Shown here piece after piece: positions 11,517-26,834 of a stretch of DNA of 36,507 nt. The translations under genes and the position numbers were made by a program. Location: the NCBI GenBank assembly GCA_022785125.1, contig JALFRA010000041.1, forward strand, positions 1-36,507, in the 5' to 3' direction. Every line of letters begins with the position of its first letter. Positions within the stretch are counted from its first letter, which is position 1. The stretch comes from Clostridiales bacterium. GTDB lineage: Bacteria > Bacillota > Clostridia > Oscillospirales > Oscillospiraceae. The notes beneath the pieces are model-generated. The model worked only from the letters and a program-made list of their open reading frames with translations. It did not search any database and was not told the DNA's origin.

Positions 11517-11571
11517 GACAGATCCCTCCAAAACATAAAAAGTAAACGAATGCGGCCAGAGCCGCAAGAGG

Positions 11572-11642: not shown

Positions 11643-13322
11643 TTATACCTCCCGGATGAGCCGGGCGGCGGTCTCGACATGTGAATCATTGTCCAAACTC
11701 AGACTCATGTTTTCTTCAATAATGGGCAGCTTGAACTTAATGGATTTCAGCCATTGTCCATTGGGCTGACGTTCCTCGAAAATCTGAACCTCAGAGATCA
11801 GTGCCTCCATAAGCTGCCGCCGCTCCTGCTCGTCCATCCTGGCGTACAGCTTATCAAAATAAATCAGCACCTTGTAGATATTGTCGCCGGTCAGCTTCTC
11901 AGCTTCAATCGCCATTTTCTTTGCTCTGGCCGCAATCAACAAGTTCTCCGTATCTTCGATTTTATCATACATCTTGTAAAGGCGATCATCAAGGTCTGTT
12001 TTACGCTTAAGGTAATGCCTGTCGTCCGGATCGAGAGAATCTATTTCTTCCATCAGCCTTGCCTTTATCGAATAGTTCTGCCTCAGTTGCTTTTCGTAGT
12101 TGGCAATTTCCTGCTCGATAGCAGCGGTATCAACTTTCATATTGATTTTTTTCTGCATGATGCCAGCAAACCTCGGATTGCTGACCAATTTCACGATGAC
12201 TTCTGCAACTGCGCTGTCCAACAATTCCTCATTGACCTGCTTGCTATAGTCGCATTTATGACCACGGGTCATACTGCGGTGTTTGCAGCCATAATAAAAG
12301 AAATCCTTATACTTTGTACCATCTGACTTGTACTTGACACTTTTGTTTCCGTACATGCCGGCACCACAAACAGGGCATTTCAGGATGCCGGAAAGAAGAT
12401 GAACCTTTGTGTCCTTACCAGGGTTGACACGCTCATACTTTTTTGCCTGTGCCAGGAGCTTTACCTGCGCTTCATGCCAGAGATCCTCAGATACGATACC
12501 CTCATGCAGCCCATCCACCAGCAGATAGTTTTCCTGTTCCACCAAGCGGTACTCGTTTCTGGTTCCATGCACCTTTTCCGTTTTACGCCTGCCATAGGAA
12601 ATCTTCCCGCAATAGACTGGGTTTTTCAGAATTCTGCGGATAAGGGAGGCATCAAACAGGGGATTTTTCCCGTTTTGACGCTGAATTTTGTGAATGCCGT
12701 GTTGCTCCAGATATTTTGCCACTCCAGTTGCACCCATATTTGTATGAACATATTGATCAAAAATGGTGCGGATGGCAACCGCCTCTTCCTCGTTAATCAG
12801 AAGCATTCCATTTTCCAGCTTGTAGCCATACGGCGCAAATCCGCCGTTCCACTTGCCCTCTCTGGCCTTTTGGATGCGGCCTTCCATGGTTTGGACACGA
12901 ATATTTTCACGCTCAATCTCCGCCACCGCCGACAAAACGGAGATCATCAATTTTCCAGCATCTTTGGAGCTGTCGATACCATCCTCCACGCAGATCAGAT
13001 TCACACCAAAATCCTGCATGACCTGTAAGGTGGAAAGCACATCCGCAGCATTTCTCCCGAAACGGGAGAGCTTGAATACCAGCACATAGGAGACGCCATC
13101 CTTGCCGCTTTTGATGTCCTCCATCATCTGGTTGAACTGGATTCTGCCTTCAATGGATTTACCAGACTTCCCGGCATCCTCGTATTCGTGGGCAATCTCA
13201 TACTCATTGAATTCAGCAAAGGATTTCATGCGGGCTTTTTGGGCGTCCAGCGAATAGCCGTCAATCTGCATGGCGGTAGATACTCTGGTATAGGTATAAA
13301 CTTTTATCTTTTCTTTTGCCAT
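11643..13322 (-). CDS. Large serine recombinase (integrase) of the integrated element
   Basis: A 559-residue protein. The resolvase catalytic domain (about 7-150) has the nucleophile in YTRVSTAMQ (S15) and FKLSRFGRNAADVL. A recombinase domain follows (about 165-270, GFAPYGYKLENG onward), then a zinc-ribbon with CPVCGAGMYG, a later C and H-x-CDY (about 310-355), and a coiled coil (about 385-470). Such enzymes integrate and excise elements by double-strand cleavage at a 2-bp core, forming 5'-phosphoserine links. The start at 13322 follows GAGGAA. The last eight codons (AARLIREV) and the stop are host-derived rlmD sequence beyond the attachment core, so the element's own coding part ends at T551. 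On the excised circle the frame would continue into the tail now on RlmD. Confidence 0.95.
   Translation of the reverse strand: MAKEKIKVYTYTRVSTAMQIDGYSLDAQKARMKSFAEFNEYEIAHEYEDAGKSGKSIEGRIQFNQMMEDIKSGKDGVSYVLVFKLSRFGRNAADVLSTLQVMQDFGVNLICVEDGIDSSKDAGKLMISVLSAVAEIERENIRVQTMEGRIQKAREGKWNGGFAPYGYKLENGMLLINEEEAVAIRTIFDQYVHTNMGATGVAKYLEQHGIHKIQRQNGKNPLFDASLIRRILKNPVYCGKISYGRRKTEKVHGTRNEYRLVEQENYLLVDGLHEGIVSEDLWHEAQVKLLAQAKKYERVNPGKDTKVHLLSGILKCPVCGAGMYGNKSVKYKSDGTKYKDFFYYGCKHRSMTRGHKCDYSKQVNEELLDSAVAEVIVKLVSNPRFAGIMQKKINMKVDTAAIEQEIANYEKQLRQNYSIKARLMEEIDSLDPDDRHYLKRKTDLDDRLYKMYDKIEDTENLLIAARAKKMAIEAEKLTGDNIYKVLIYFDKLYARMDEQERRQLMEALISEVQIFEERQPNGQWLKSIKFKLPIIEENMSLSLDNDSHVETAARLIREV
11671..11681. 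repeat. Left attachment junction core
   Basis: GTCTCGACATG. It matches the right junction GTCTCCACATG at 10 of 11 positions. The GTCTC part is identical and contains the predicted crossover dinucleotide TC at 11674-11675. To its left lies host DNA encoding the last rlmD codons. Confidence 0.75.
11691..11701. repeat. Left attP arm
   Basis: GTCCAAACTCA, the exact inverted partner of TGAGTTTGGAC at 25484-25494. On the joined circle the arms would lie 15 bp on either side of the TC dinucleotide, the symmetry expected of a serine integrase attP of about 54 bp. Confidence 0.7.
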
Positions 13323-13362
13323 CTCATTTCCTCATTCATATTGGTTTGTAAAACCTTATGTA

Positions 13363-13393
13363 TTTTCTGGAAAGCGTATCGCTCTCCAGAAAA
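13363..13393. terminator. Hairpin upstream of the recombinase gene
   Basis: TTTTCTGGA-A-AGC (13363-13375) pairs with GCT-C-TCCAGAAAA (13381-13393) around one mismatch. It sits between the mobilisation operon and the recombinase gene and ends in a T-run on the minus strand. It probably terminates the mob operon, separating relaxase from recombinase expression. Confidence 0.5.
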
Positions 13394-13423
13394 AGTTTGG
13401 ACACTTAACTCACGATTATTATA

Positions 13424-13606
13424 TCACGCTGCTTTTGAATCTTCAATGTATTTCTCGTGTGCATTTTCATCTGCATCGCATTTTTCTTTTTCTCTGTTGG
13501 CAAAAATCGGATCAGGCATAGAGTCAATGTCCAATTCCACAGCATATTTTTCAATCAGATTTGCCAGTAAAACGGCGAAGCCGTTCCACTCATCTTTCAT
13601 AGGCAT
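13424..13606 (-). CDS. Small hypothetical protein downstream of the relaxase
   Basis: A 60-residue acidic protein (begins MPMKDEWNGFAVLLANLIEK) with no recognisable domain. The start at 13606 follows GGAGG by only four bases; a second in-frame ATG at 13600 has a more usual spacing of ten. It overlaps the relaxase 3' end by 17 bp, so it is translated from the mob mRNA. The longer open frame to 13711 is an antisense-phase extension inside the relaxase gene. Small proteins of this size and place recur in clostridial mobilizable elements; a role is unknown. Confidence 0.6.
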   Translation of the reverse strand: MPMKDEWNGFAVLLANLIEKYAVELDIDSMPDPIFANREKEKCDADENAHEKYIEDSKAA

Positions 13607-14570
13607 TTGTCCTCCATTTATCCGGGCTGTGCATGTACTCTGCGAGTACCTCTTTAGGAATTCGATCCAGAACCGCCACAGCGTCTGCATAGTCCCGCCG
13701 CAACTTGGCATCGGCCAGCTGTTTCAAGGTGCTTTGCTGGGTCGCTTTCTCCAAAGACTGCTCCAGCTGTTCATTTTTCTGTTTCAGCTTTTTGTTTTCG
13801 ACGGTGGTTTCTGTGAATGCCGCCTGATACTTCTTCATGTTGCTGTGCATCTTCTCCACAGCCGGGATATACTGATCCAGCAGAGCTGTAATCTCAGCAG
13901 CTCTGCTTTTAGCATTAAACGCCCCGATCCCAGCCAGGAGTTCCTCCAGCTTGGCTTTCTGCTTGGTCAGTCGGGTCATTTCCTTAAACACTCTGGGCGG
14001 GATATGGTCACGGCCGGTTTGACTGGCGTTTTGGCCACGCTCCAGGTCGGGATATTTCCGCACCATGTGTTCCCAGAACTTGTCCTGCCACTGGGACAGC
14101 TTTTTCTTGTTGCCCAGGATTTCCTTGGCGCAGAGCCTGCCATCCGCAGTCAACGGGACAAAACAAAGGTGCATATGAGGCGTTTTCTCGTCCATATGCA
14201 CCACAGCGGATACAATCGTTTTGGGGGCTTGGTTTTGCTGAATAAAGGCCAGCGCCTCTTGAAAATAGGCTTTGATCTCGGATTTCTTCATTTTCTGAAA
14301 GAACTCCGGCGAAGCGGTCACGAGGGCTTCTACCAACCGGACGCTGTCCGACCTGGTGCGGCAGCCAGCTTCTTTGATTTGGCGTTCCGCCTCTGCTCGA
14401 TATTTCCGCTGCGGCTCGATCAGATGGAAATTATACTTGCTCCTGCTGATGTCCACATCGGGATTGCTGGCGTATTTCTCTTTGGTGCGCTCGTTGTGGG
14501 CTTCAATGTTCCCGATCTCTGGCCCTTTGTACTTGGCAAAGCGGAGAATGGCATACTGCGGCTTGCTCAT
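13590..14570 (-). CDS. MobV/Pre-family relaxase
   Basis: A 326-residue protein with the MobV histidine signature HMDEKTPHMH (about 124-133; the HxDExTPHxH motif) that binds the metal ion for oriT nicking. Upstream, HNERTKEKYASNPDVD and SKYNFHL match the conserved N-terminal Mob/Pre motif. The C-terminal third is a predicted coiled coil (KMHSNMKKYQAAF...LEQSLEKA). MobV relaxases nick oriT and pilot single-stranded DNA to a helper conjugation pore. The start at 14570 overlaps the HTH gene stop by four bases (ATGA). It is slightly shorter than plasmid Pre proteins (about 400 residues), mainly in the C-terminal part. Confidence 0.92.
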   Translation of the reverse strand: MSKPQYAILRFAKYKGPEIGNIEAHNERTKEKYASNPDVDISRSKYNFHLIEPQRKYRAEAERQIKEAGCRTRSDSVRLVEALVTASPEFFQKMKKSEIKAYFQEALAFIQQNQAPKTIVSAVVHMDEKTPHMHLCFVPLTADGRLCAKEILGNKKKLSQWQDKFWEHMVRKYPDLERGQNASQTGRDHIPPRVFKEMTRLTKQKAKLEELLAGIGAFNAKSRAAEITALLDQYIPAVEKMHSNMKKYQAAFTETTVENKKLKQKNEQLEQSLEKATQQSTLKQLADAKLRRDYADAVAVLDRIPKEVLAEYMHSPDKWRTNAYER

Positions 14571-14785
14571 ACTCTGTCCCTCCGTTTCTGCCAGATCAGG
14601 TCATAGCCCAGCACGTCGGCCAGCTCCACGACCTCCTTGTAGCGAATAGATTCCCGCTGGAGCTTGGCCGACAGGTTGGAAACACAGTCCGACCAGTCGT
14701 ATTCTTCATGGAGCAGGTCAACTACCTCTTGCATGGTGTATCCCGCCCGGACGATCTGCGCCTTAATCTCGTTGCGTACCGTCAT
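14567..14785 (-). CDS. Small HTH accessory protein of the mob operon
   Basis: A 72-residue protein with an XRE-like fold in outline (IRAGYTMQEVVDLL ... LSAKLQRESIRYKEVVELADVLGYDL). Proteins of this type precede mob genes in many clostridial elements and are often mislabelled as flavin oxidoreductases, which this is not. ATG 14785 is ten bases after AGGAGG; the TTG at 14791 is too close to it. It is likely an oriT-binding accessory factor or autoregulator, since it is the first gene after the oriT-like region and is coupled (ATGA) to the relaxase. Confidence 0.75.
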   Translation of the reverse strand: MTVRNEIKAQIVRAGYTMQEVVDLLHEEYDWSDCVSNLSAKLQRESIRYKEVVELADVLGYDLIWQKRRDRV

Positions 14786-14791
14786 AATCAA

Positions 14792-15178
14792 AAATCCTCC
14801 TAAATTTACTTAATAAGAAAACGAAGCCGGTACGCCCTCTGGCATAACCGCTTCGCTGTTTCATGAAAAATTCTACTGTCACTGAATCCGTTCAGAATTG
14901 CTGGTGTGATGTCCTATTCATAGGTCGCACTTTCCGACCTTTCCGTTCCGTGTGACTTGGCTTGAAACCGTGTATTTTCCCATGATTCCAAGCACCCGGT
15001 TCACCGGGGCGAGAAGCACGGTTTCGCAAAATGATTCCTTCCAACCGTCAATTACTTTGCGATTCCCACTTGCCTTGATTTAACATGGGGATTTGACCGG
15101 TGATTCTGACTGGTATAGCCGTCGAATTGCTATAAAAGGGAGAACAACGGTCAATCAAAGTGTACGTACGTACACGGT
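14792..15178. other. Dyad-rich non-coding region, candidate oriT and replication origin
   Basis: 387 bases without a gene between the helicase and the mob operon. Inverted repeats: CCTAT/ATAGG (14913-14924); AGGTCG/CGACCT around CACTTTC (14922-14940); GAAACCGTG (14964-14972)/CACGGTTTC (15017-15025) enclosing CTTGG/CCAAG and CCCGG/CCGGG; TTGACCG (15093-15099)/CGGTCAA (15148-15154) enclosing TATAGC/GCTATA; and a 16-bp palindrome at 15160. MobV oriTs lie just upstream of mob and consist of short inverted repeats beside the nick. The AGGTCG...CGACCT hairpin is the best candidate. The dyads nearest the helicase could be an origin. Confidence 0.5.
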
Positions 15179-15222
15179 TCAGCGCCGCCATTCCTCCGGC
15201 ACATCTTCCGGTACGTACGTAC
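15160..15222. repeat. Pair of TACGTACGTA palindromes at the helicase 3' end
   Basis: GTGTACGTACGTACAC (15160-15175) is a perfect 16-bp palindrome. GTACGTACGTAC (15211-15222) is a perfect 12-bp palindrome inside the last helicase codons. Their centres are 49 bp apart, close to five helical turns, so one protein could bind both on the same face. Confidence 0.55.
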
Positions 15223-16558
15223 GCATCGAATCACCAGAAAACACTGATATATGATTTCTCACCAATACCTCGATTCCCAGAAAGCCACGCACCCGCCGTC
15301 CGGCAGCATTGGTCACATTGTTGCAGTATTCCAGATTATAGCGGCTCTGGCAGTCGATCAGGGCTTCGCTGAAGCTGCGGGGTTTCAGAGCGGGCAGATT
15401 ATTTTCGGTGCAGTAAATCTGGTACGCCTCATACAGCTCTTTGGAACTGGCGGACAGATTGGCTTTCAGGCGAACATATCCGTCAGAATCCAAAAAGTCA
15501 TACACATTGTTGTTGTCCCGTTTGACTGCTTCCCGGTTTTCTCTGGTGCGGTCACTTTCGGTGAATTTGAAGTTGTTGGCGGCCAGCCGCTGCAATCCCT
15601 CAAAAGCCCACAGCAGAATGCCCTCCACCTCGGCTTTCATCTTCTCGGCCAGGTCAGGATCATCCACACGTCCGGCAGGCTTGTCCCTGGTGGTCAGCAC
15701 CAACTGGCGGCGGTAAAAGCTGTCGCTCCGGTCAAACAGTGCCTGCAAATCGCCGTTGGAGAAGGCCAGCAGCCGGGCGCACATCCATCCCTGATAGCTT
15801 TGCTTGCCCTTGCGTTCCAAATCCATCTTGCCCTGGGCGGTGACGATGGACTTGACATAGTTGGTCTGGCGCAGGGCCTCCATCCGCATATCGTCGTCCA
15901 CACACAGGAGGATATGCTCCAGGTCCGCACGGGCAAATCGGTTCTCCGATATTTTCCCAATGCTGCCGTCCTTCATGTTGGAGCCGAACAAAGCTCCCAG
16001 CACAGCCCCGATCTGACTCTTGCCCTCACCGCCGTTGCCCTTGATGACCATCATCCGCTGACCCTTGTTGCTGGGAATCAGGCAGTAGCCGATATATTCC
16101 TGCAAGGTGGGGGTGTCCTCCGGGTAGAGCAGACCATCCAGAAATTTCAGCCAGAGAACGGGTTTGGATGCCCTGGGATTGTAGGCCACAGGGAACCGGT
16201 TGCGGACGATTTCAGGTTTTCCCTCCACAAACCTCCCGTCCAGAAAAAGCGTCCCGTTGGAGAGATGAATCCGGTCCGCCTCCGGAGGAAAATCCTCTGC
16301 CAGCGCCGCCAGCTTCATCAGTTCCACGATGTTGCTGATTTTACGGGGAATATTGCTGACCGCACAGCATTTCAGCTCCTCAAAAATCTCTCCCCGCAGG
16401 GGTAGCTCATCGGTCACACGGCCTTCAGGCGTGAAAAAAGCCCCGTTTGTGAAGAGAATCTTGTGCGTCTGCAAGAACTCCTCACAAAACAGGGCTTCGT
16501 TGATGTTTTTTCCATCGAACCAGACGGGCATCCCGTCAGGCTGCTTGTTTTTCTTCAT
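15179..16558 (-). CDS. D5/P4-type superfamily 3 helicase (phage/plasmid primase C-terminal type)
   Basis: A 459-residue protein. The helicase core has Walker A GNGGEGKS (about residues 174-181), Walker B-like ILLCVDDDM, and a motif C region ending LLAFSNGD, the pattern of P4-family DNA primase/helicases. An N-terminal D5_N-like helical region precedes it. It would unwind DNA during replication of the excised element. The gene overlaps the CHC2 primase gene by 23 bp; GGAGG lies about nine bases before ATG 16558. Its final codons carry one of the TACGTACGTA palindromes. No polymerase-type primase domain is visible, so priming is presumably supplied by the neighbouring CHC2 protein or the host. 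Confidence 0.85.
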   Translation of the reverse strand: MKKNKQPDGMPVWFDGKNINEALFCEEFLQTHKILFTNGAFFTPEGRVTDELPLRGEIFEELKCCAVSNIPRKISNIVELMKLAALAEDFPPEADRIHLSNGTLFLDGRFVEGKPEIVRNRFPVAYNPRASKPVLWLKFLDGLLYPEDTPTLQEYIGYCLIPSNKGQRMMVIKGNGGEGKSQIGAVLGALFGSNMKDGSIGKISENRFARADLEHILLCVDDDMRMEALRQTNYVKSIVTAQGKMDLERKGKQSYQGWMCARLLAFSNGDLQALFDRSDSFYRRQLVLTTRDKPAGRVDDPDLAEKMKAEVEGILLWAFEGLQRLAANNFKFTESDRTRENREAVKRDNNNVYDFLDSDGYVRLKANLSASSKELYEAYQIYCTENNLPALKPRSFSEALIDCQSRYNLEYCNNVTNAAGRRVRGFLGIEVLVRNHISVFSGDSMRTYVPEDVPEEWRR

Positions 16559-17156
16559 GGGTGACTTCCTCCTTTTCCAATCTCTTTAACCGGTCCTCCA
16601 AACTGGTGATCAGGCCATCCTTGTTCAACATTTCTACGATTCTTACCCGCTGTTCCAGTTCGGCGGCAATGAGCAAATCTGCCAGATACTCCACATAGTC
16701 CAGCATCTGACAGGCTTCCACAAACCGGTCATCCAAAGCATCTTCGGGTGTCTTGGGTGCGTACTGCACCATCCAGCGTTCTAAAAGATGCAGATAATCG
16801 CATAGCACCCGCAGACAGCGACCTTCCTCCTGCCGGTATGCCGACAGCAGGGAACGTTTCGGCTTGGGTAGAGCAATGGCCGCCGGGGGGTTATCCGGGT
16901 CAATCCCGAAATCCTGTGCCAGCTTTTGTGCCGCCTCGAAGCTGCTCAAACCAAAGAGCCTTGCCACAAGGTCGATCACATCGCCGGTGGCCCCGCAGCC
17001 GAAGCAGTAAAAATACTTTTCATTCAGCTTCATGCTGGGGTGCCGGTCATCGTGGAATGGGCAGCGGCACATCCCACTGCGGTTGACCTGCAAGCCGTAA
17101 TGTTCCGCTGCATCTCGCACCAGAATCGTTTGCTTCACCAGTTCAAATAGCGTCAT
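16536..17156 (-). CDS. CHC2 zinc-finger primase-like protein
   Basis: A 206-residue protein with an N-terminal DnaG-type zinc finger: CRCPFHDD, then YCFGCGATGDVIDL (ligands about C30, H34, C52, C55). This domain recognises single-stranded DNA. The Toprim catalytic domain of DnaG is absent; the rest is helical, so it is either an accessory primase or a separated zinc module for the downstream helicase. The start follows GGAGGGA. It is the first gene of a leftward replication operon with the helicase. The pair resembles a split P4-type replication protein. Confidence 0.85.
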   Translation of the reverse strand: MTLFELVKQTILVRDAAEHYGLQVNRSGMCRCPFHDDRHPSMKLNEKYFYCFGCGATGDVIDLVARLFGLSSFEAAQKLAQDFGIDPDNPPAAIALPKPKRSLLSAYRQEEGRCLRVLCDYLHLLERWMVQYAPKTPEDALDDRFVEACQMLDYVEYLADLLIAAELEQRVRIVEMLNKDGLITSLEDRLKRLEKEEVTHEEKQAA

Positions 17157-17217
17157 TTTCGCTCCCTCCCCTCTGAAAAATGATCGGATGCCGTTTTTTC
17201 CATAGAGCCTCTCTTTC

Positions 17218-17246
17218 TTGCGCTTCCGGCGCAGCTGTTGTATAAT
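17218..17246 (+). promoter_or_regulatory. Promoter of the sigma-like gene
   Basis: TTGCGC (17218-17223), 17-bp spacer, perfect TATAAT (17241-17246). It gives a leader of about 120 bases before ATG 17372. The leader holds imperfectly complementary GTTCCG/CGGAAC blocks around 17256 and 17322. Confidence 0.65.
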
Positions 17247-17371
17247 GTTGGTACAGTTCCGAAAAAAGTAATCTGCTTTCAGATTATCCTTTCACTAATA
17301 GGAGAAATCCCGGGTGTAAAACGGAACCATTTTTTGAAAAATCATAAAAAAATTTTGAAGGGGGTGGAGTC

Positions 17372-18217
17372 ATGACGTATCTCACAGATGACGAGCTTCT
17401 GGATACCGAAGATGGCTTCACCGAATGGGATGAGGACGTAGCCGCCGGATCGGCGGGGGAAACGCTGGAACAGGCCCTTGCGGAAGAACGCCTGGCAGAG
17501 CTGGAAAGCGAGCTGGAGCAGGACGAGCATCCCGTTGATTATGATGCCGAGCTGGAGACTGAGGAAGAAGAAGCGGCTCCGGTCAGCGAAAAGCGACTGA
17601 AACGGGAGATCCGGGCGGAAGCCATGCGTCGGCTGGAGGAAGCGGCCCGCACCGAAAGCGATTTCCGGGTGGTCGTGGACGAATGGGACAAGCTGGACCG
17701 GAACCGGGAGCGCCGGGAGCGGGACCACGAAAACCTCCGTGGGGATGTGCCGCTGGAATATCAGGCGGTGCCGGAGCCAAAGCTCATCCCCCGATGGATG
17801 AACACCCCTGCATACCGGCAGCTGATGGCCGGGAATTTTTTGGACGTCCTATTTGACTGCCCCTATGAGATGCACCAGCTGAGTGCCGACCCTTTTATCT
17901 CCGGCATGATCGAAAATCTCAGCGAGGAACACAAGGAAGTCCTGTATTTTCTCTCTTTGCGGCTGTACAGCACCGCCCGTCTTGCCGCCATTCGTGGGCA
18001 GTCTGACCGCAACATCCGCAAGCTGCGGAAAACCATCCATAAAAAATTGCAGCGCCAGATGTATGACCATCTGTGCAGCAAGCCGGAAAACGGCCTAACC
18101 TTGCGGGAGCGTCGGTTTTTAGAGGAATACTCAAAAATCGCAAAGAAACAGGGCAAGGATGCCGTGATCCGGCGGGAGAACAAGACCAAGCGCAGAAAAA
18201 AGAAAAACCGCCCCTGA
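17372..18217 (+). CDS. Sigma-70 region 4-like regulator of the element
   Basis: A 281-residue protein. The N-terminal third is strongly acidic (EWDEDVAAGSAG ... LETEEEEAAP). The middle is charged and helical. The C-terminal part contains a region 4-like HTH (EEHKEVLYFLSLRLYSTARL ... GQSDRNIRKLRKTIHKKLQ), ending in a lysine/arginine tail. It resembles the sigma-like proteins common in clostridial mobile elements. Region 2, needed for -10 melting, is not evident, so it may be a DNA-binding regulator rather than a true sigma factor. GGAG lies six bases before ATG 17372. It heads a plus-strand pair divergent from the replication genes, a place suited to controlling them. Confidence 0.65.
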   Translation: MTYLTDDELLDTEDGFTEWDEDVAAGSAGETLEQALAEERLAELESELEQDEHPVDYDAELETEEEEAAPVSEKRLKREIRAEAMRRLEEAARTESDFRVVVDEWDKLDRNRERRERDHENLRGDVPLEYQAVPEPKLIPRWMNTPAYRQLMAGNFLDVLFDCPYEMHQLSADPFISGMIENLSEEHKEVLYFLSLRLYSTARLAAIRGQSDRNIRKLRKTIHKKLQRQMYDHLCSKPENGLTLRERRFLEEYSKIAKKQGKDAVIRRENKTKRRKKKNRP

Positions 18218-18248
18218 TGACAGGGACGATGGAACAGAGAGGGCGTGT

Positions 18249-19160: not shown

Positions 19161-19696
19161 CGAGGACTCTGCCGCTGCGCTGGGACGAGAGCTTTTATAT
19201 ACCTCTGCTTCCTTTTCCGGCCAGGCGGATTTTGCCCTGTGAGCAAATCCTGATTTCGTCCGTGACCGTACAAAATCCGCCTGTCCTACTGCCGCCGAAA
19301 AGTGCTTGTCAACCGCTATCTGCCCACATAGCAGATACCGCAGCCAATCCCTTTGCAGCGTCAGTCGGAAGCAAAGGTATAACACACTATACTTTGCCAG
19401 CAAAGTCGTGTGCCAACAGGGGTGCTGCTCGCCCCTATTGGAAACCCAGAGCCAAAGGGGAGATCCCCTTTGGATACCCCTTGTTTTCGTCGCCTGTGTT
19501 TATACAAGCCTGCTCCGCCTTGTATATTTCACAATCTCCGAAAACACAAAAACCTCTCAGAATTCACCCTATAAAAGGGTGAATTCTGAGGGGTTTTTGT
19601 TCGCCATAGCATAAATTTCTATAAAACAAAATGTGATATTGCAGGGACAGTCTGCCACTACAAATATACAGACGCTCATTGGGCTTCTACTTTATT
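19161..19696. other. Structured non-coding region of the element
   Basis: About 530 bases without a credible gene. Hairpins: CCAAAGGGG-AGAT-CCCCTTTGG (19452-19473) and TATACAAG (19501-19508)/CTTGTATA (19519-19526), then the terminator at 19548-19598. Plus-strand open frames of 102-116 codons cross it, but they lack RBSs, run through the hairpins, and read as cysteine- and proline-rich translations without domain character. It separates the mobility/replication half from the cargo half. Confidence 0.5.
19548..19598. terminator. Bidirectional terminator between the element's two halves
   Basis: Arms of about 22 bp: AAAAACCTCTCAGAATTCACCC and GGGTGAATTCTGAGGGGTTTTT with one G-U type mismatch and a TATAAAA loop. 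U-runs exist in both directions. It can end the plus-strand sigma-like operon and the minus-strand XRE gene. Confidence 0.8.
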
Positions 19697-20332
19697 TCAC
19701 TTTGTCAGCTTACGGGACATAAACTTGGGGTTGATGTACAGGATATAGACACTGCAAATCACCATCATAATGAGCGCACCCACAAGTCCCATCCCAAAAC
19801 GTATTGTCAACAAGCCAACTAAAAGTTGAATGCAGCAGTAGCCCAACTCGATATTTGCATTTTTACGGCGCTGGATTTTATCCGCTTCATAGCGGTGGTT
19901 TGTTGCCATCCATATGGAACTGAGTAGCAGCATGATAAGCGAAAAGATAAGCGCCCCATAATAAAGTTCTTTGTTCGGATAGTCAGGATGACGAAGCTGG
20001 TAAACTACCGATGTGCAGTTGAACATAAACGCCACCTGTGCGATAATTGCAATTTTTATGAGGTTTGCCCGTAAAATAAGGTTTGGCTTTTTCCGGTCCC
20101 GCCCCTTTTCGGCGGTCAATCCGTCCTCGACATTCTTATGGGGATCAACAAGTTCAGAGAGATTGATGTCAAATACTTCTGCCAACTGGATAAGATTACT
20201 CGCTGTCGGCTCTGACTGGCCTGTTTCCCACTTGGATACAGCCTGTCTGCTGACACCAAGCTGTTCGGCTACATATTCTTGCGACAGCTTTAATTCCTCT
20301 CGTCTGTTTTTAATATTTTCACCCAAAGTCAT
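19697..20332 (-). CDS. XRE-family HTH regulator with membrane domain
   Basis: A 211-residue protein. An N-terminal HTH_3 domain (about 3-58) reads LGENIKNRREELKLSQEYVAEQLGVSRQAVSKWETG. After a linker come four hydrophobic stretches (about 90-210, from LIKIAIIAQVAFMF to GLVGALIMMVICSVYILYI). Such membrane-tethered XRE proteins are common in Firmicutes and may sense an envelope signal. ATG 20332 is eight bases after AAGGAGG; the GTG at 20341 overlaps that site. A cluster of CAGTTG/CAACTG half-sites lies in its own promoter region, suggesting autorepression. Confidence 0.85.
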   Translation of the reverse strand: MTLGENIKNRREELKLSQEYVAEQLGVSRQAVSKWETGQSEPTASNLIQLAEVFDINLSELVDPHKNVEDGLTAEKGRDRKKPNLILRANLIKIAIIAQVAFMFNCTSVVYQLRHPDYPNKELYYGALIFSLIMLLLSSIWMATNHRYEADKIQRRKNANIELGYCCIQLLVGLLTIRFGMGLVGALIMMVICSVYILYINPKFMSRKLTK

Positions 20333-20370
20333 ATATAACACCTCCTTGTACCTGTATTGTACTCAAAATT

Positions 20371-20403
20371 CCAGTTGCAGTCGACCAACTATATGTCAAC
20401 TGG
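20371..20403 (-). promoter_or_regulatory. Cluster of CAGTYGAC-like half-sites upstream of the XRE gene
   Basis: CCAGTTG (20371-20377), CAGTCGAC (20378-20385), CCAACT and GTCAACTGG (20395-20403) form overlapping dyads within 33 bp, 39-71 bp before the start codon. On the minus strand a TTGACA and, closer to the gene, a TACAAT-like -10 are present but not at ideal mutual spacing. Confidence 0.45.
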
Positions 20404-20508
20404 TGGTTGCAATCTAAAAACAGCGGCAATTTAGTACTTTAAGCCAAACCGCCGCTTCCTGTTTATGCTGTATGGCTCTGTGTCTACGGGCCTGGATAAT
20501 CGACCCTA

Positions 20509-21486
20509 CTATTCTTTTGACAGCTCTGTTCCATAATGGGCAGACCAAAATCCGTTATCCAGCGCAATGGTGAAAAACGGCGTCATTTTGTTGTAGACCT
20601 CAGTATCTGTGGGCTTGGGCAGACCAAGCAAAAATGCAGTAAAATCTGGCGTCACTTTTCCGGCAATGATTTTTCCATACCGCCAATCGGTGTCTTTCTG
20701 TTTCCCATATCGAAGCGCCAGATCAATACACTCTGCTTCTTCATTCCAGCAGTGGATTTCAAAAGTCCGTGCAGTTTTTAGGGCGTCGGACATATAAGCT
20801 ATCCACTTGCTGTTACCCTTTTCCGTTCTGTCAAGCTCCAACGACCAATGTTCGGCGATGTTTTCCGGGGTAAAAGACGCAGGCCTAAGTCTCTGGATTG
20901 ATTCTGTCAGAGACTCAACCAAATTCTGCCGTTCCTCAAAATCTCTTTCATGTCCGCCCCCATGGACAGCTTCTGTATAGCGCCATTTCCACTCATTCCA
21001 GAATGCTATGTAGCCATTTTTAGAGAATTCATCATCCGGAATCTTCTTCGGTTTGCAGGACTGATAGTAGCTCTCTACTTTGTCTGCGAAGCGGAGCACT
21101 TCTGCTTGATAGTCACGCAGGGACACCAATTCTGATTCACCAGATGGGAGAATCAGCCGAACTCCGCCATTTTCGTGGACGACAGACCAGTCCAACCCAT
21201 TGTCACATCCTGAAATCGTAACCTGTGACAAATCCTTATTTGCAATTAAAAAATGACCGCAGCACGGAACCATCTGAATATCGTGTTCTGACATGACCTT
21301 ATCTTCAGTCAAGGTTTTCAGCAGATAAAGTGCAGTTGCGCTGACGGTTCCATCATACTCCATCCTGGCATTGCAAATCTGCACGGTAACATGGCCATGA
21401 AGGCAAAGATCTTCTGGGTCATCTTCTGGTCCGCAAATCCAGGTGAATTCGCTCACATCAATAGAAAAACCGCTCAAACAGCTCAT
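20509..21486 (-). CDS. Unrecognised cytoplasmic protein (325 residues)
   Basis: The protein begins MSCLSGFSIDVSEFTWICG and shows no signal peptide, membrane segment or motif I recognise. It is acidic and rich in tryptophan, cysteine and histidine, giving an impression of an immunity-type or ligand-binding protein. GGAGATGAG lies close upstream of ATG 21486. It follows two smaller unknown genes (21542-21988 and 22001-22225) on the same strand. The GC content is well below the host flanks, consistent with acquired cargo. It could belong to an immunity set for polymorphic toxins, but no toxin gene is present, so no function is assigned. Confidence 0.6.
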   Translation of the reverse strand: MSCLSGFSIDVSEFTWICGPEDDPEDLCLHGHVTVQICNARMEYDGTVSATALYLLKTLTEDKVMSEHDIQMVPCCGHFLIANKDLSQVTISGCDNGLDWSVVHENGGVRLILPSGESELVSLRDYQAEVLRFADKVESYYQSCKPKKIPDDEFSKNGYIAFWNEWKWRYTEAVHGGGHERDFEERQNLVESLTESIQRLRPASFTPENIAEHWSLELDRTEKGNSKWIAYMSDALKTARTFEIHCWNEEAECIDLALRYGKQKDTDWRYGKIIAGKVTPDFTAFLLGLPKPTDTEVYNKMTPFFTIALDNGFWSAHYGTELSKE

Positions 21487-21541
21487 CTCCTATTCCACAT
21501 ATCAATAGAAAACTGCAACTTCAAAATAAAGCTCCCAATTA

Positions 21542-21988
21542 TCAAACCAACTCCAGGCAATAAAAAGATGGACGGTTTTTATCTTTGTTATTCCAGTTCT
21601 CCGCTTCGATGAGTTCTTTGAGTTCATTCACGGTCAACTCGTCAATGGAAATCGTTCTTTTATGGACATAGGGTCTATCATCAAATTCCCAATATCCCAG
21701 AAGCCAGACATTCCATACTTCCACACTGTCAGTTTGCCGGAGAGCAGATTTAATATAGCTGATGATCCTCTTTGCCCTGCCTTCGGTATATCTGTCCAGC
21801 TCAAGATAAACACCATATTTTCTCTTGCAGTATATATCGACATCATCAAATGGTAGCAGATAAAAATCATTATCCGCACCACTGTCATAGATTGTCCCCA
21901 TATCAACATTAAAATGATGTGGATAGCTTTGAGGCGGTCTGACTTCCGGTAAGGGACAGTCTGCCGCTATAAATACATATTGGCTCAT
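21542..21988 (-). CDS. Unrecognised small protein (148 residues)
   Basis: The protein begins MSQYVFIAADCPLPEV and contains IYDSGADNDFYLLPFDDVDIY, YGVYLELDRYTEGRAKRIISYIKSAL and ISIDELTVNELKELI. It is acidic and soluble, with no membrane segment. I recall related conserved hypothetical proteins in Firmicutes with the same opening (a short strand and a LPEV motif) but no function. GGAG precedes ATG 21988. It lies 12 bases after the 74-residue gene, indicating a two-gene unit. Confidence 0.6.
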   Translation of the reverse strand: MSQYVFIAADCPLPEVRPPQSYPHHFNVDMGTIYDSGADNDFYLLPFDDVDIYCKRKYGVYLELDRYTEGRAKRIISYIKSALRQTDSVEVWNVWLLGYWEFDDRPYVHKRTISIDELTVNELKELIEAENWNNKDKNRPSFYCLELV

Positions 21989-22000
21989 GGCAATTCTCCT

Positions 22001-22225
22001 TTACGCTTCGGTTTCAAAGTATTCCTGATATGTAGCCTCCGACATATCAGAATACAAAGTAATTTGTAAATTGTTATCACTGGAAAATCGCTCAATCTCG
22101 CCGTAAATCTCTTTTTGAGTTTTGGTGTACGGATTGCCCGATGTATGAAACGCTGTCGAAGATCCGTCATACTTGCAAAAGGCCACGCACACAAGGGGAG
22201 CTTTACAGGATATTTGTATCTTCAC
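22001..22225 (-). CDS. Unrecognised short protein (74 residues)
   Basis: A 74-residue protein beginning at GTG 22225 (VKIQISCKAPLVCVAFCKY on paper). An in-frame TAA lies four codons upstream, so it cannot be much longer. The nearest RBS-like GGAG is about 14 bases upstream, a weak arrangement. It could be the remnant of a longer gene or a real small partner of the next gene. It ends ...YQEYFETEA just before the 148-residue gene. Confidence 0.45.
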   Translation of the reverse strand: MKIQISCKAPLVCVAFCKYDGSSTAFHTSGNPYTKTQKEIYGEIERFSSDNNLQITLYSDMSEATYQEYFETEA

Positions 22226-22269
22226 ATAATGGCTTTATTCTCCGCCTCAATCTCACGACAAACAGGAAT

Positions 22270-22536
22270 TTACTTTTGTCTTTTTGGAGTAACTGCTCTT
22301 AGTATTAGTGTGATAATGGCCATTACAGCAACTTGCACTAATGTAACGAGAATCATAAGACCACGTGATTCATAGTAATTGAAATTGCCCCAATTTATGC
22401 TTAGTTCAATAAGTACAGCCAAAAGGATGCTACACCAAACATATCTTCGATTGACAAAGTAAAATACAACAGGAAGAATGAATGTCAGCAAAAACACAAC
22501 TGGCGATAACAGATATTGAATAATCACGCTTAACAT
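22270..22536 (-). CDS. Small membrane protein (88 residues)
   Basis: Mostly hydrophobic, with three predicted membrane segments: about 4-28, 32-48 and 58-80, and a basic C-terminus (RAVTPKRQK). GGAGGGA lies about six bases before ATG 22536. No family recognised. It is separated from the next downstream gene by 44 bases and could be co-transcribed with the small membrane gene upstream. Confidence 0.6.
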   Translation of the reverse strand: MLSVIIQYLLSPVVFLLTFILPVVFYFVNRRYVWCSILLAVLIELSINWGNFNYYESRGLMILVTLVQVAVMAIITLILRAVTPKRQK

Positions 22537-22594
22537 TATAATCCCTCCCTAAATTCCTATTTGTTAATAGCTGAGCCGAATGGGTGTCCATTTA

Positions 22595-22810
22595 TCAACT
22601 CTTATGGTCAATCAATCCCCACACAGCAACAATCAGGCCAAGGATTGCCATACCGAAAAAGAAATACAGTGCAGAAAGCAGGCCATATCGGGATATATTC
22701 CAAAGAGCGGAATGCTGCCCGTTGAGCGTCCAGTCGTTTGCCATTGATCCGGCTAAAATCATGGCAACTGAAAGTGCCCCTGTCAAAAATATCAGCATCC
22801 CAAATATCAT
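22595..22810 (-). CDS. Small membrane protein (71 residues)
   Basis: Two hydrophobic helices (about 2-20 and 43-66) separated by a short polar loop (SMANDWTLNGQHSALWNISRYG). No strong RBS directly precedes ATG 22810; GAGGAA is about 17 bases away, so a nearby alternative start is possible. The family is unknown. It lies 35 bases after the lipoprotein gene in the same direction. Confidence 0.5.
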   Translation of the reverse strand: MIFGMLIFLTGALSVAMILAGSMANDWTLNGQHSALWNISRYGLLSALYFFFGMAILGLIVAVWGLIDHKS

Positions 22811-22845
22811 TTTCTTCGTAGCTTATTCCTCACATTAAAAAGACA

Positions 22846-23364
22846 TCAGGTGTCCAGCTCACAGCAGTACAGGGTATTGGTGTCGGTATCGTAAAGCCCA
22901 AAGGTGAAGTTGAAGGAGTTCCGCTCCAGAATATCCTTTCCGGCTGCGTCATCTTCGGCCTGCCGGTCCAGCAGAAAATAGTACCCGTTCTGGACTTCCG
23001 GCACCAGCGGGTTGCCGTTGCTGTCGCCCAGATAGGGACCAATTTGATAGGCCGTGTGATTCTCCTCACCGGAAATGCCGTACACGAGGATTTGAGTAGT
23101 CTCGTCCACAGGAAGGCAATGCCAATCCGCATTCGCCTTTATCTGTTCCAAGACGGTATCGTCCTGAAACGTAAGGACAATGCAGGAGGTTCCGTCCCCA
23201 TGAAATCCACCGTGGGTGTCGGAAGCGGAAACCTCACTGCCGCCTGAGACTTCCAGGTCCAATGCTTCAGAAACGATGTCCTGCGGCGTTTTAGCACCAC
23301 AAGCTGTAAGACTGGTCAAGGACAGAACGATTGCAACCATAAGAGCCACAAATTTTCTTTTCAT
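22846..23364 (-). CDS. Putative lipoprotein (172 residues)
   Basis: A lipoprotein signal peptide (MKRKFVALMVAIVLSLTSLTAC) with lipobox LTAC at C22 predicts export and diacylglyceryl anchoring. The mature part is acidic with no domain I recognise (NADWHCLPVDETTQILVYGISG; ends TNTLYCCELDT). GAGGG precedes ATG 23364. It follows the broken membrane gene and the ECF sigma/anti-sigma pair on the same strand, so it may belong to that regulon. The encoded protein would be on the outer face of the membrane. Confidence 0.75.
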   Translation of the reverse strand: MKRKFVALMVAIVLSLTSLTACGAKTPQDIVSEALDLEVSGGSEVSASDTHGGFHGDGTSCIVLTFQDDTVLEQIKANADWHCLPVDETTQILVYGISGEENHTAYQIGPYLGDSNGNPLVPEVQNGYYFLLDRQAEDDAAGKDILERNSFNFTFGLYDTDTNTLYCCELDT

Positions 23365-23396
23365 TGAAATCCCTCTTTTCGTTTTGTAATTGGCTA

Positions 23397-23834
23397 TTAT
23401 CCGGCCTGAACCTCAGGCAAGAAGAAAATGCCCTCTGCCAAATTGATAAACATATCCGGATCACGGAGACAGTAGGCTTTATCTTTCCACCACACTGTAC
23501 TCCGATTTGCTGAGATGGTCCGGTTAGAGCCATCCTGCAAATGATATGTAATGGAGATCAGCGGCTCCTGGCTGCTGTCAGCTTTTTTGAACGGGTCATA
23601 TTTGAGAAAGCCAGTAAGTTTAAGTGCCAGCTCTATTTTTTCCGGGTCGGTTTCTTCTTTTACTTTCTCGGTAACCTGGGGTTAAGCAACGCTCACTGAT
23701 TGAACTTCATCCATTTCAGGCAAACCGAGCAGCCACATACCATCCATTATTATTTGAACCCCTACCAGTAGGATGGTTACGATAATGATTTGTGCCAGAA
23801 ATTTAAGAATTCCTCTTGTAAGCTTGTTCATCAT
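23397..23834 (-). pseudogene. Membrane-anchored protein gene interrupted by in-frame TAA
   Basis: From ATG 23834 (RBS GGAAGGA) the frame encodes 50 residues with one membrane helix (FLAQIIIVTILLVGVQIIMDGMW region, about 12-34). It stops at TAA 23684-23682, then continues open in the same frame for 94 codons to TAA 23399-23397. The second part reads like real protein (PQVTEKVKEETDPEKIELAL, YHLQDGSNRTISAN, STVWWKDKAYCLRDPDMF). One base change, for example from TAT or TAC, would explain the stop. It lies 34 bases after the anti-sigma gene. The first part may still be made as a short peptide. The family is unknown. Confidence 0.7.
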
Positions 23835-23868
23835 TATGGTTTCCTTCCTAAATTCCGATTTACCTGTT

Positions 23869-24546
23869 TTATGTGCTTTTTTCAATGCTCTCTGCAATTT
23901 TCACCATCTCACTCTCGGGCAGTGCCGCCGAAATGCAGAACAGAATATCTCCGGATTCGGAATGCCATACCAGAGCATTCGCATTTTTGGGGTCAGCGTC
24001 CTGGTAAAAATCGGCTTTCTGTGTTCCCACAGCCACTTCCTCTGCGGTCATCTGGTCTGAGACTAAAAAGAGGCTTGTGGCGTCTGCACCGGCGGAGTAC
24101 ATGAAATGGATCACCTGACCATCACTGTTGCTATAAGTCCGCATAGAAGTGCCTCCCGCAGACTGCACATTGGTTTCTTCAAATCCATCAGGCAACCATG
24201 TGGGAGCAAAATCGGTGGTCATTTCTTCGTCCGGTGCCGGTCCCTCAAAGCGGTACTCCACAAAAGTTTCATACTGCTGGCGTACCCAGGCAAAGAAGGC
24301 ACCTCTGGCCTCGGCATCTACCGTGAGCCATGTTGTACCGGTCAGAACAACCGCTACCAGGAAACAAGCTGCTGTCCGAAGAAATTTGTAGGCTCCAGGA
24401 TGCCGTCCTCGCCGGATAACACGCTTCATTTTGCGTTCAAATTGTGGGGAGAACTGATGGTCGCACTCCTGCGGAAGGGGCAAGGAATCAAGAATTGCCT
24501 GATCTGCCTCTGACGCAGCAGCTCTCAGCATTTCATCTGTAATCAT
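23869..24546 (-). CDS. Anti-sigma factor-like protein with DUF4367-type domain
   Basis: A 225-residue protein. The N-terminal cytoplasmic part (about 1-55) would hold the sigma factor. One membrane helix follows (about 57-76, LRTAACFLVAVVLTGTTWLTV), then an extracellular domain with PTWLPDGFEET and a late LVWHSESGDILFCISAALP, typical of DUF4367 sensors. It starts inside the sigma gene stop (ATGA overlap at 24543-24546), the usual layout of ECF/anti-sigma pairs. It is expected to sequester the ECF sigma factor until an envelope signal arrives. Confidence 0.8.
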   Translation of the reverse strand: MITDEMLRAAASEADQAILDSLPLPQECDHQFSPQFERKMKRVIRRGRHPGAYKFLRTAACFLVAVVLTGTTWLTVDAEARGAFFAWVRQQYETFVEYRFEGPAPDEEMTTDFAPTWLPDGFEETNVQSAGGTSMRTYSNSDGQVIHFMYSAGADATSLFLVSDQMTAEEVAVGTQKADFYQDADPKNANALVWHSESGDILFCISAALPESEMVKIAESIEKST

Positions 24547-25061
24547 AGCTTGCCCTCCTTTTCGTACAGTTCCTTCAATCTGTTTTTGGCACGCTGGTCA
24601 AGTTTGGATGCAGCAGCATGGGATATTCCAAGCATAGCCGCCACTTCTTTTACGCTGTAACCCTGATGGTATCGGAGTAAAATTACCTCTCTATATCGTG
24701 CAGGCAGTTTCAGGATACAGGCTGCCAAGGTGTTTTCTCCTTCATAAACAGCCGGAACGCCTTGCATCTCATCGTCCAGCTCGACGATTTGGTGGCGGTT
24801 GCGTTTCCTATAAAAGTCTATTGATTTATTCTCTACTATTGTAACGATGTAACCCTGCGTTTTTGGACACTTGGGTTGACCGATTTTTTCAATATTTTCA
24901 GCAATTTTCAAAAACGCCTCATGCACAGCATCTTCGGCATCCTGTTCGTTGGTCAGTATTCTATTTGCTATGTGAAACATCATGATTCGATACTCCATGT
25001 AGATTTGCTCAAACTTTGAGCGATCTTCAGGAGTATCTATCATTTGAAGATAAATCATCAT
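24543..25061 (-). CDS. ECF-type RNA polymerase sigma factor
   Basis: A 172-residue protein with region 2 (IYMEYRIMMFHIANRIL ... DAEDAVHEAFLKIAENI, about 20-57) and region 4 (LPARYREVILLRYHQGYSVKEVAAMLGISHAAASKLDQRAKNRLKEL, about 118-164). Regions 1 and 3 are absent, as in ECF factors. A GGGGGTG-type RBS precedes adjacent ATGs at 25061 and 25058. The coupled anti-sigma gene follows. The promoter carries a perfect palindrome between -35 and -10, so a repressor or the regulon itself may control it. Confidence 0.88.
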   Translation of the reverse strand: MMIYLQMIDTPEDRSKFEQIYMEYRIMMFHIANRILTNEQDAEDAVHEAFLKIAENIEKIGQPKCPKTQGYIVTIVENKSIDFYRKRNRHQIVELDDEMQGVPAVYEGENTLAACILKLPARYREVILLRYHQGYSVKEVAAMLGISHAAASKLDQRAKNRLKELYEKEGKL

Positions 25062-25090
25062 GCTACTTCACCCCCGGTTTTCTTGTTTTG

Positions 25091-25120
25091 ATTGTAGTAT
25101 ACTGGGGTTACCCCAGGCAA
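25091..25120 (-). promoter_or_regulatory. Promoter of the sigma gene with palindromic operator
   Basis: On the minus strand TTGCCT (25120-25115), 18-bp spacer, TACAAT (25096-25091). The spacer is filled by the 15-bp palindrome CTGGGGTAACCCCAG (25102-25116), which also overlaps the -35. A protein bound there would block RNA polymerase. Confidence 0.6.
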
Positions 25121-25147
25121 GTACGAACAGTATCCGTGCAAACATAA

Positions 25148-25182
25148 TAAAATTGCCCGCAGAAAATTCTACGGACAATTTT
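25148..25182 (-). terminator. Terminator after the rlmD fusion gene
   Basis: Imperfect 16-bp arms (AAAATTGYCCGYAGAA type) around 25148-25182, with TTTTATT following on the minus strand, about 25 bases after the rlmD stop. It belongs to the element, not the host. Confidence 0.65.
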
Positions 25183-25205
25183 ATGCCTAATCATCATGGT
25201 GAGGC

Positions 25206-26834
25206 TCAAACCATTCCAAAGAACTTCAAAGCATCCGTGATCGCCGCTTCCTTTTCCGGCGGGCATTTCGGTTGTCTGGAATTCTCAGACTTCGGTTTAT
25301 TATAGTTTTCCCGCTCGATAATGCCATACTTCTGTTTGACCTGGGCGATATAAAGGTGGCTGACTTTCAGCCCTGTATGTTCCAGCACATACTCTTTAAT
25401 TTCCTCATAGGTGGCCTTGCTCTCCGCCGCCGTTAAATCCAGCTCGTCCAGATTCAACTCCACCTCTATATGCTGCTTAGTATTGAGTTTGGACAAAAGT
25501 ACTACCGTCTCCACATGGACGGTGCGTGGGAAGAGATCCACGGCGGTGGCGGTGTCCAGTCGGTAACCCTGGGCCGCGAACCGCTTCACGTCCCGGCCCA
25601 GGGTGGCGGGGTCGCAGGACACATAGACCACCCGCTGGGGAGCCATCTGGGCAATGGTGGCCACCACATCCTCCGCCAGCCCCTTCCGGGGCGGGTCCAC
25701 GCAGATCACGTCGGGGCGCACCCCCTCCCGGGCCAGCTGCCGGGCGGCCTCGCCGGCGTCGGCGCACAGGAACCGGGCGTTTTCAATGCCGCTGCGGCGG
25801 GCGTTCCCAATGGCGTCGTCCACCGCCTGGGGCACCACCTCAGCCCCCCACACCATGCCGGCCTGCCGCGCCATCACCAGGGAAATGGTGCCGATGCCGC
25901 AGTACAGGTCCAGCACCGTCTCGGTACCGGTAAGCTGAGCCAGCTCCACCGCCTTGCCGTAGAGCACCTCGGTCTGGTCGGGATTGACCTGATAGAAGGA
26001 GGGGACGGACAGGCGGAAGTCGGAGCCGCACAGGGTGTCGGACAGGAAGTCCTGTCCCCAAAGCGTGCGGTAGGCGTCCCCCAAGATCACGTTGGTATGG
26101 CTCTTGTTGACCCCCAGCACGATGCCCACCAGCCCCGGCTCGGCCGCCCGGAGGGCGTGCACCAGCTCGGTCTCCCGGGGGACCCCCACGCCGTTGACCA
26201 GCAGGCAGCACAGGCTCTCCCCCCGGCGGTTGGTGCGGACATACACATGGCGCACCAGGCCGGAGCGGGCCTTCTCATGATAAGCCGGGATGGAATACTG
26301 CATCATCCAGTCCTTTACCGCTCCACGCAGGCGGGAGGCCGCCTGGCTCTGGAGCCGGCAGTCGCGTACATCCACCACCTTGTGGGTGCGGGACTGGTAG
26401 AAACCAATGCGGGGGCCGGGGGAGACGGGGAACTGGGCCTTGTTGCGGTAGCGGTCAGGCCGGGCGGCGCCCAAAATTTCCGTCACATGGATATCCGCGC
26501 CCCCCAGGCGGCGGAGGCAGTCCTCCACCCGGGTGCGCTTGGCCTCCAGCTCCTCGGCGTAGGTGATATGACGGAAGGCGCAGCCGCCGCAGCGGTCGTA
26601 ATAGGGACAGTCGGGGGTGATCCGGGCGGGGGAGGGTTCGGTGACCTCCCGCACCACCCCCCACAGGGCGGAACGGCCCACATGGGTGAGCCGCACCTGA
26701 CACAGCTCCCCCCGGACGCCCCCCTGGACGAACACCACCATGCCGTCCAGCCGGGCCACGCCGGCGCCGTCGCTGCTGTAGCCCTCAATGCGCAGGGGAT
26801 AAGTATGGCCTTCCAGAGGCTTATTGGGCTGCAT
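25206..26834 (-). CDS. rlmD: 23S rRNA (uracil-5)-methyltransferase RlmD with element-encoded C-terminal tail
   Basis: A 542-residue protein. An N-terminal TRAM domain precedes the iron-sulfur cysteines CPYYDRCGGC with a later VRDC, SAM-binding LDLYCGIGTISLVMA, and the catalytic cysteine in VVYVSCDPATLGRD. It methylates a uracil of 23S rRNA (U1939 in E. coli numbering). The host part ends at T443 (HVET); residues 444-542 come from the integrated element: KATYEEIKEYVLEHTGLKVS, KQKYGIIERENYNKPKSE and a final DALKFFGMV. The catalytic domain is complete, so activity probably survives. The start overlaps the upstream lipoprotein gene by 14 bases. The tail's function is unknown; closely similar tails recur on RlmD proteins of many clostridia, as I recall. 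The GC content falls sharply at the fusion point. Confidence 0.93.
   Translation of the reverse strand: MQPNKPLEGHTYPLRIEGYSSDGAGVARLDGMVVFVQGGVRGELCQVRLTHVGRSALWGVVREVTEPSPARITPDCPYYDRCGGCAFRHITYAEELEAKRTRVEDCLRRLGGADIHVTEILGAARPDRYRNKAQFPVSPGPRIGFYQSRTHKVVDVRDCRLQSQAASRLRGAVKDWMMQYSIPAYHEKARSGLVRHVYVRTNRRGESLCCLLVNGVGVPRETELVHALRAAEPGLVGIVLGVNKSHTNVILGDAYRTLWGQDFLSDTLCGSDFRLSVPSFYQVNPDQTEVLYGKAVELAQLTGTETVLDLYCGIGTISLVMARQAGMVWGAEVVPQAVDDAIGNARRSGIENARFLCADAGEAARQLAREGVRPDVICVDPPRKGLAEDVVATIAQMAPQRVVYVSCDPATLGRDVKRFAAQGYRLDTATAVDLFPRTVHVETVVLLSKLNTKQHIEVELNLDELDLTAAESKATYEEIKEYVLEHTGLKVSHLYIAQVKQKYGIIERENYNKPKSENSRQPKCPPEKEAAITDALKFFGMV
25484..25494. repeat. Right attP arm
   Basis: TGAGTTTGGAC, the inverted copy of the left arm at 11691-11701. 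It lies within the codons LSKLN of the RlmD tail. Confidence 0.7.
25507..25517. repeat. Right attachment junction core
   Basis: GTCTCCACATG. GTCTC is identical to the left junction; it encodes the VET of HVET in rlmD. DNA to the right is host, to the left element. The predicted crossover dinucleotide is TC at 25510-25511. Confidence 0.75.

Follow-up and report, generated by a model that had tools for sequence, protein, structure and literature searches.

A conserved C-terminal domain apparently exchanged in frame between RlmD and the serine recombinase of a mobile element, and its possible role in recombinase control

Why does a gene for RlmD end in 99 codons that belong to a mobile element, and which protein do these codons serve? 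The question arises in a 36,507-nucleotide stretch of Clostridiales bacterium DNA (contig JALFRA010000041.1, positions 1 to 36,507; the window, below, is this whole stretch). Here the 3′ end of rlmD carries a 13.8-kb element with a Mob_Pre relaxase, a CHC2 primase-like protein and one large serine recombinase. In streptococci, rlmD (rumA, rum) has been described as an insertion hotspot for mobile elements (PMC5053989; papers are cited by PubMed Central number, for the accessible parts of their text). The answer we favour, by a slight balance of probability, is that the attachment site (attP) of the element lies inside its recombinase gene, that integration swaps coding ends in frame, and that the domain swapped modulates the recombinase, an effect on activity that we infer. 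Labels of genomes and loci begin with G and L, respectively.

The two junctions of the element lie in two genes on the minus strand. The rlmD gene (26834-25206) encodes 542 amino acids. Its body, residues 1-443 ending in H-V-E-T (25506-26834), matched TIGR00479 over residues 21-442 (383.6 bits, cut-off 183.55) and is the only full-length copy in the genome. After T443 at the core follows the element-encoded 99-residue tail (25209-25505, stop 25206-25208). The recombinase gene (13322-11643, 559 amino acids) forms the other end of the element. Its residues 1-551 (11670-13322) contain the Resolvase (PF00239), Recombinase (PF07508) and zinc-ribbon (PF13408) domains in the order that defines large serine recombinases, all above the Pfam cut-offs. 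T551 at the core is followed by AARLIREV, eight host codons representing the displaced 3′ end of rlmD (11646-11669, stop 11643-11645). A closer identity as the cassette chromosome recombinase CcrB was rejected (NCBIfam NF047343, 204.2 bits versus 900 required).

The window contains exactly two copies of an 11-bp core, CATGTSGAGAC, each of them on the minus strand: at the rlmD/element junction (25507-25517, CATGTGGAGAC) and at the recombinase/host junction (11671-11681, CATGTCGAGAC). Shuffled sequences contained 0.04 copies on average, and none of 100 shuffles reached two. The two copies differ by C/G to the left of GAGAC and by C/G immediately to its right, and the crossover is therefore placed inside GAGAC. 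GC content shifts at the core, from 0.688 in the rlmD body to 0.461 in the tail, with 0.465 in the recombinase gene. The insertion in the rlmD 3′ end and the core common to rlmD and the integrase gene are those of an rlmD-targeting serine-integrase element. As an earlier note on this DNA had stated, the core is read as H-V-E-T in both junction genes.

Empty sites were sought in 20 genomes of the same genus, including the source genome. A clear RlmD was present in 19, and G017 had only a weak match elsewhere. RlmD carried a long tail in eight genomes (own included) and ended nine to 18 residues past the core in 11. Four of these 11 (G003, G007, G010, and G016) showed GAGACCGCCGCCCGGCT directly past the core, identical to the end of the recombinase in the window, which agrees with the expectation of the earlier note that an unoccupied rlmD would end in AARLIREV-like codons. 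The host MATE transporter gene that flanks the recombinase in the window (10152-11600, minus strand, PF01554) lies downstream of rlmD in G001, G003, and G010; it was not found near rlmD in the stretches examined from G007 and G016. Judged from the two junctions and these empty-site relatives, the 3′ ends have been exchanged reciprocally. G009 has an 84-86% identical recombinase, ending in HVETAARLIRTDH.

We then joined the junctions by script. The joined recombinase had 650 residues and the restored RlmD 451, both in frame and with no internal stop, as had been predicted. In either of the other phases, the recombinase would have ended 0 or 8 residues beyond T551. A frame match alone is a 1-in-3 event, so the weight rests on conservation in relatives.

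The survey of relatives covered 63 homologous recombinase genes, 38-100% identical to the best of three query recombinases, with script labels corrected by eye; the L101 gene at 2300 and L112 (23-25% identity) had been removed from an initial 65. The core was in the H-V-E-T phase in 61 of the 63, which bears out the frame conservation for which such a survey had been suggested. The genes are mutually related and were gathered partly by tail or natural-fusion queries, and hence 61/63 is not a count of independent cases and 17/63, below, is not a frequency. The two exceptions, L079 and L101, are both interrupted before the core. Short in-frame ends followed soon after the core in 41 genes. In 17, a complete homologous tail continued in frame from the recombinase, with an uninterrupted long frame in 11 (L103, L113, L114, L126, L131, L187, L188, L209, L212, L216, and L249). 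Three further genes are incomplete: L116 is in phase but interrupted within the tail, L124 runs off its contig, and L045 is interrupted just past the core. The fused recombinase-tail form thus exists as a joined gene in relatives. With a natural fusion as query, 71 of 250 family genomes gave a match at E 1e-30; the whole fusion was covered in G225 and G201, and the recombinase end plus tail in G212.

A change of owner is seen in L123 and L134, two records of one element: a stretch of 4652 bp that stops no more than a few bases from the core is 99.87% identical between them. Past the core, L123 has nine residues (VVGLQRKDT) and a stop; L134 has 112 tail residues. The DNA that comes next appears to be another element in both. 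The following open reading frames (ORFs) presumably encode ParA- and ParB-like proteins. In G423 an rlmD tail comes first, followed by a window-like element, a recombinase to which a second tail is fused and, further along, a third tail. Tandem-like layouts were also present in G560, G556, G558, and G225; the fused form L188/G201 adjoins chromosomal-looking genes. The script reported no terminal repeats in the loci examined, most of which are partial records.

These arrangements suggest the following mechanism. The attP site would sit within the 3′ part of the serine-recombinase gene, in a stretch whose product is probably a flexible linker joining the body of the recombinase to a small helical domain at the C-terminus. 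Crossing over within GAGAC, with the conserved H-V-E-T codons of rlmD as partner, would swap the coding 3′ ends in frame. On integration, the recombinase would lose the domain and end in eight host codons, and RlmD would gain its last residues together with the domain. The recombinase would regain a tail by excision or when a second element joins in tandem. The domain may modulate the recombinase through binding of DNA or a partner, the tailed form suiting integration from the circle and loss of the tail making the resident less active or differently directed, as reported for the Mx8 integrase; we rate this a little below an even chance. It is because of the Mx8 precedent, as told in PMC4701971, that we would expect the tailed form to integrate well and the tail-less form to be less active. 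On RlmD, the domain would most likely be parked cargo. A broader version, which we consider somewhat unlikely, has the regulatory domain passed among recombinase, RlmD and neighbours: a solo insertion would disarm the recombinase and the tail of an adjoining newcomer would re-arm the resident, so that each arrival would alter the mobility of the next element.

Selection was assessed on 74 tails of exactly 99 codons (the window and 73 of 80 loci), whatever the owner. The ratio of nonsynonymous to synonymous substitution rates (dN/dS) had a median of 0.064 and a maximum of 0.35 across the pairs kept at 0.05<dS<1 (369 of 2701), and both alternative frames contained stops in 74/74 sequences. These comparisons indicate strong purifying selection on the tail. 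They make it highly improbable that the tail is idle on both proteins, with ends swapped merely as any attP inside a gene would swap them. Such neutrality would fit the persistence of both short and long recombinase ends, but it conflicts with the dN/dS values and with the retention of a tail-like domain by four partner recombinases, described below.

Neither Pfam nor NCBIfam matched the window tail at E values up to 1. Pfam gave no significant match for any of 34 tails (best E 0.011), nor did a sequence search of the PDB with the tail (best E 0.025). A family of unknown function, phrog_27283, matched the window tail (E 8.7e-7), 33 of the 34 tails, and 20 of 245 class genomes versus none of 14 control genomes; the three strongest genome matches were short open frames of 70-111 codons. 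Eight columns are invariant in the alignment of the 34 tails, none of them before residue 48. Two of the three short frames were read as free proteins of 69 and 71 amino acids that resemble the distal half (L245:5800-6009 and L247:1910-2125) and share a similar C-terminal end with the tail. At these two loci, neither Pfam nor PADLOC gave a match, and NCBIfam gave none close to a cut-off; we take the nearby ORFs to be MazF-like, DUF262-like, and HNH-like. Separately, a longer type of tail was found on 97 plasmid records, 90 of them from Enterococcus; among the 20 matches listed (H53-H72) it was 61.5% identical, and most were hypothetical or unannotated. A conserved, probably folded tail whose distal half also occurs free is unlike a short degron. 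We hence consider it very improbable that the tail targets the recombinase made from the circle for degradation, in the way that an ssrA-like tag acts on the longer repressor of phage BPs, even though the architecture, an attP inside a gene yielding a long and a short product, is the same (PMC4557955).

AlphaFold modelled the tail alone as three helices, at a mean predicted local distance difference test score (pLDDT) of 68. In a natural 654-residue fusion, the recombinase body with long helices was followed by a stretch below pLDDT 50 (534-583, the core at about 555) and by tail helices at 588-599, 605-614, and 638-650; the overall predicted template modelling score (pTM) was 0.33, and the placement of domains is uninformative. 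In these models, the core-bearing stretch between body and tail is probably a flexible linker. A linker of this kind would also suit a recombination directionality factor (RDF) that the circle would encode as a natural fusion with the recombinase, and artificial integrase-RDF fusions do function through a linker, according to PMC5737554. The same source has RDFs activating attL x attR and inhibiting attP x attB, which makes this role less likely: an RDF carried by the circular form but missing after integration would have the wrong timing, unless the tail on RlmD or on a neighbour acts in trans. The tail also lacked a match to RDF families in Pfam and NCBIfam. The fused RDF is an improbable reading on these grounds, and the built-in directionality module proposed in the earlier note was not borne out.

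The same note had suggested that the tail keeps RlmD functional. In its fuller form, this alternative holds that the tail only repairs RlmD by supplying a replacement 3′ end and that the in-frame fusion to the recombinase is an inherited by-product. All 74 junctions assigned to RlmD by the script were in frame, the first tail residues (V-[VC]-L-L-S) resemble the native RlmD end, and a recombinase clade that reads the core out of frame still keeps a tail. The 74 come from 110 tail places scanned, of which 17 had no recognised upstream gene (contig ends, secondary sites, tandem junctions, and the RlmD pieces L075 and L118 missed by the script). Repair leaves the 99 residues unexplained, however. 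In G005, G014, and G018 (L016, L018, and L019), three species, the DNA past the core is 98.4-99.5% identical over 206-373 bp, in contrast with rlmD ends that are only 81-83% identical. The rlmD sites of these genomes seem to be occupied by another insertion supplying nine residues, IVLLQRETL or near it. Since nine residues seem enough at the same site, a long tail would not be needed to repair RlmD. The invariant columns moreover all fall from residue 48 on, in the half that is also found on partner recombinases and free proteins. We regard repair as the sole role of the tail as unlikely.

The partner recombinases bear on the favoured reading, that of a domain modulating the recombinase, from another side. 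Four of them (L079, L113, L114, and L116) have a homologous C-terminal domain without a core, and a fifth, L101, has the domain but is interrupted. At L079, L113, L114, and L116 the serine recombinases stand in adjacent pairs, in which the first member carries a tail-like domain permanently and the second has the exchangeable one.

Several observations weigh against modulation of the recombinase by an exchanged domain. Permanently tailed partners are known only from contigs chosen for having a tail; with a partner recombinase as query, 13 of 291 class genomes matched, and all ends seen were of the exchangeable type. Such partners may be rare, and our confidence in the favoured explanation was lowered because this search yielded no further one. 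The model of the tail is of moderate confidence and without a significant structural match (Foldseek best E 1.6, to a LacI-type regulator). The purifying selection could stem from the RlmD-fused state. Another recombinase clade (pAPRE01, L117, and G005, L185) reads the core in a different frame, in agreement with the streptococcal description (PMC4701971, as far as its accessible text goes). pAPRE01 keeps its tail all the same, so the tail is of some use even when not joined to that recombinase. Both ends were seen in a few elements, and among these the type of tail did not follow the type of recombinase. This and the out-of-frame clade speak against strict matching of tail and recombinase and would allow the tail a function when free or borne by RlmD.

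The fused genes themselves add to these points. Six of the 17 either are truncated where the contig ends or have an interruption upstream (L089, L119, L142, L195, L196, and L215), and six fused forms lie in tandem-like surroundings (L103/G560, L126/G556, L212/G558, L187/G225, L249/G423, and L134/G554), which means that the owner of the tail depends on neighbouring DNA and not only on integration state. The latter six look like junctions of tandem elements, and an identification of fused forms as excised circles was not established. No excised circle of this element was found: a search of the assembly for joined sites with at most one mismatch recovered only the two known junctions, i.e., the integrated form, and exact attP strings were absent from the viral contigs scanned. 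The claim that the same 99-residue domain switches owner with integration state thus stands as to the change of ownership (17/63 fused, L123/L134) and needs amending as to what governs it; a circle carrying the fused recombinase is what we infer from the joins.

Two side observations concern other tail contexts. In pAPRE01 (L117, 7905-8300), the tail ORF overlaps the recombinase 3′ end, so that the joined site might yield a free tail protein. At L024, L091, L095, and L102, tails are joined to unrelated sequence, at apparent secondary sites sharing little beyond GAGAC.

Other genes of the element fit a mobilizable unit. Besides the recombinase and tail, nine element ORFs were scanned with Pfam and six matched (coordinates, where given, are on the minus strand): the Mob_Pre relaxase (13590-14570, PF01076, E 3.1e-51), a DUF5906 protein (15179-16558, PF19263, E 5.5e-18), the primase-like protein with a CHC2 zinc finger of the DnaG type (16536-17156, PF01807, E 6.7e-16), a helix-turn-helix regulator (19697-20341, PF01381, E 1.5e-19), a DUF4367 protein, and a sigma-70-family factor resembling extracytoplasmic function sigma factors that adjoins the tail (24543-25061, PF04542 and PF08281). 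We take the DUF5906 protein to be replication-helicase-like. With its own integrase and its own relaxase, the element is a candidate integrative mobilizable element (IME). No secretion family matched among the nine scanned ORFs, three of which had no match at all. The sigma-70-family factor and the DUF4367 protein lie just inside the element beside the tail (23869-25061) and are a possible regulatory pair.

Tail-bearing rlmD insertions occur across many Clostridia, and the traded segment, a conserved domain, may set the behaviour of the enzyme that does the joining. If it does, the element would have a built-in switch that requires no extra gene and that neighbouring elements could flip, and the build-up and movement of tandem elements would be affected. 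The exchange would also account for the roughly 100 extra residues, unrelated to rRNA methylation, on many RlmD records. The exchange point suggests a natural split site for studies of integrase control.

Parts of this arrangement have precedents. In streptococci, integrative conjugative elements and IMEs with a single serine integrase in rumA cause rumA and the integrase gene to trade their 3′ parts reciprocally (Ambroset et al. 2016, PMC4701971). They share with the present element the type of integrase, the target, an att site within the integrase gene and the reciprocity; as described there, both proteins change frame through the exchange, and the two integrase forms were suggested to differ in function. 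In the window neither frame is lost, and what changes hands is a conserved domain. In the accessible parts of PMC5357655, PMC5704250, PMC5053989, and PMC10044541, rumA figures as a site of insertion or a gene that is disrupted, and no transferred domain is mentioned. Among the titles and beginnings of abstracts listed, from a collection with few subscription journals, none reported a frame-kept exchange or a conserved exchanged domain. In myxophage Mx8, as told in PMC4701971, attP also lies inside the integrase gene; a 112-residue C-terminus is replaced by 13 residues on integration, and the prophage form is less active than that of the excised element. That integrase is a tyrosine integrase with a reported difference in activity, unlike the recombinase of the window, whose two forms are deduced from sequence. 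Mycobacteriophage BPs likewise has attP inside a coding sequence, with a long viral and a short prophage form (PMC4557955), but there the gene encodes the repressor, whose long form undergoes degradation, and the accessible text describes no 3′ end added to a host protein. Serine integrase-RDF fusions (PMC5737554) similarly link a regulatory module to a serine integrase; they are engineered, and the tail of the element would be at most a candidate RDF. The reciprocal exchange itself is thus already published, and what is new is the frame-kept exchange, the conserved domain exchanged and the donation of tails between neighbours.

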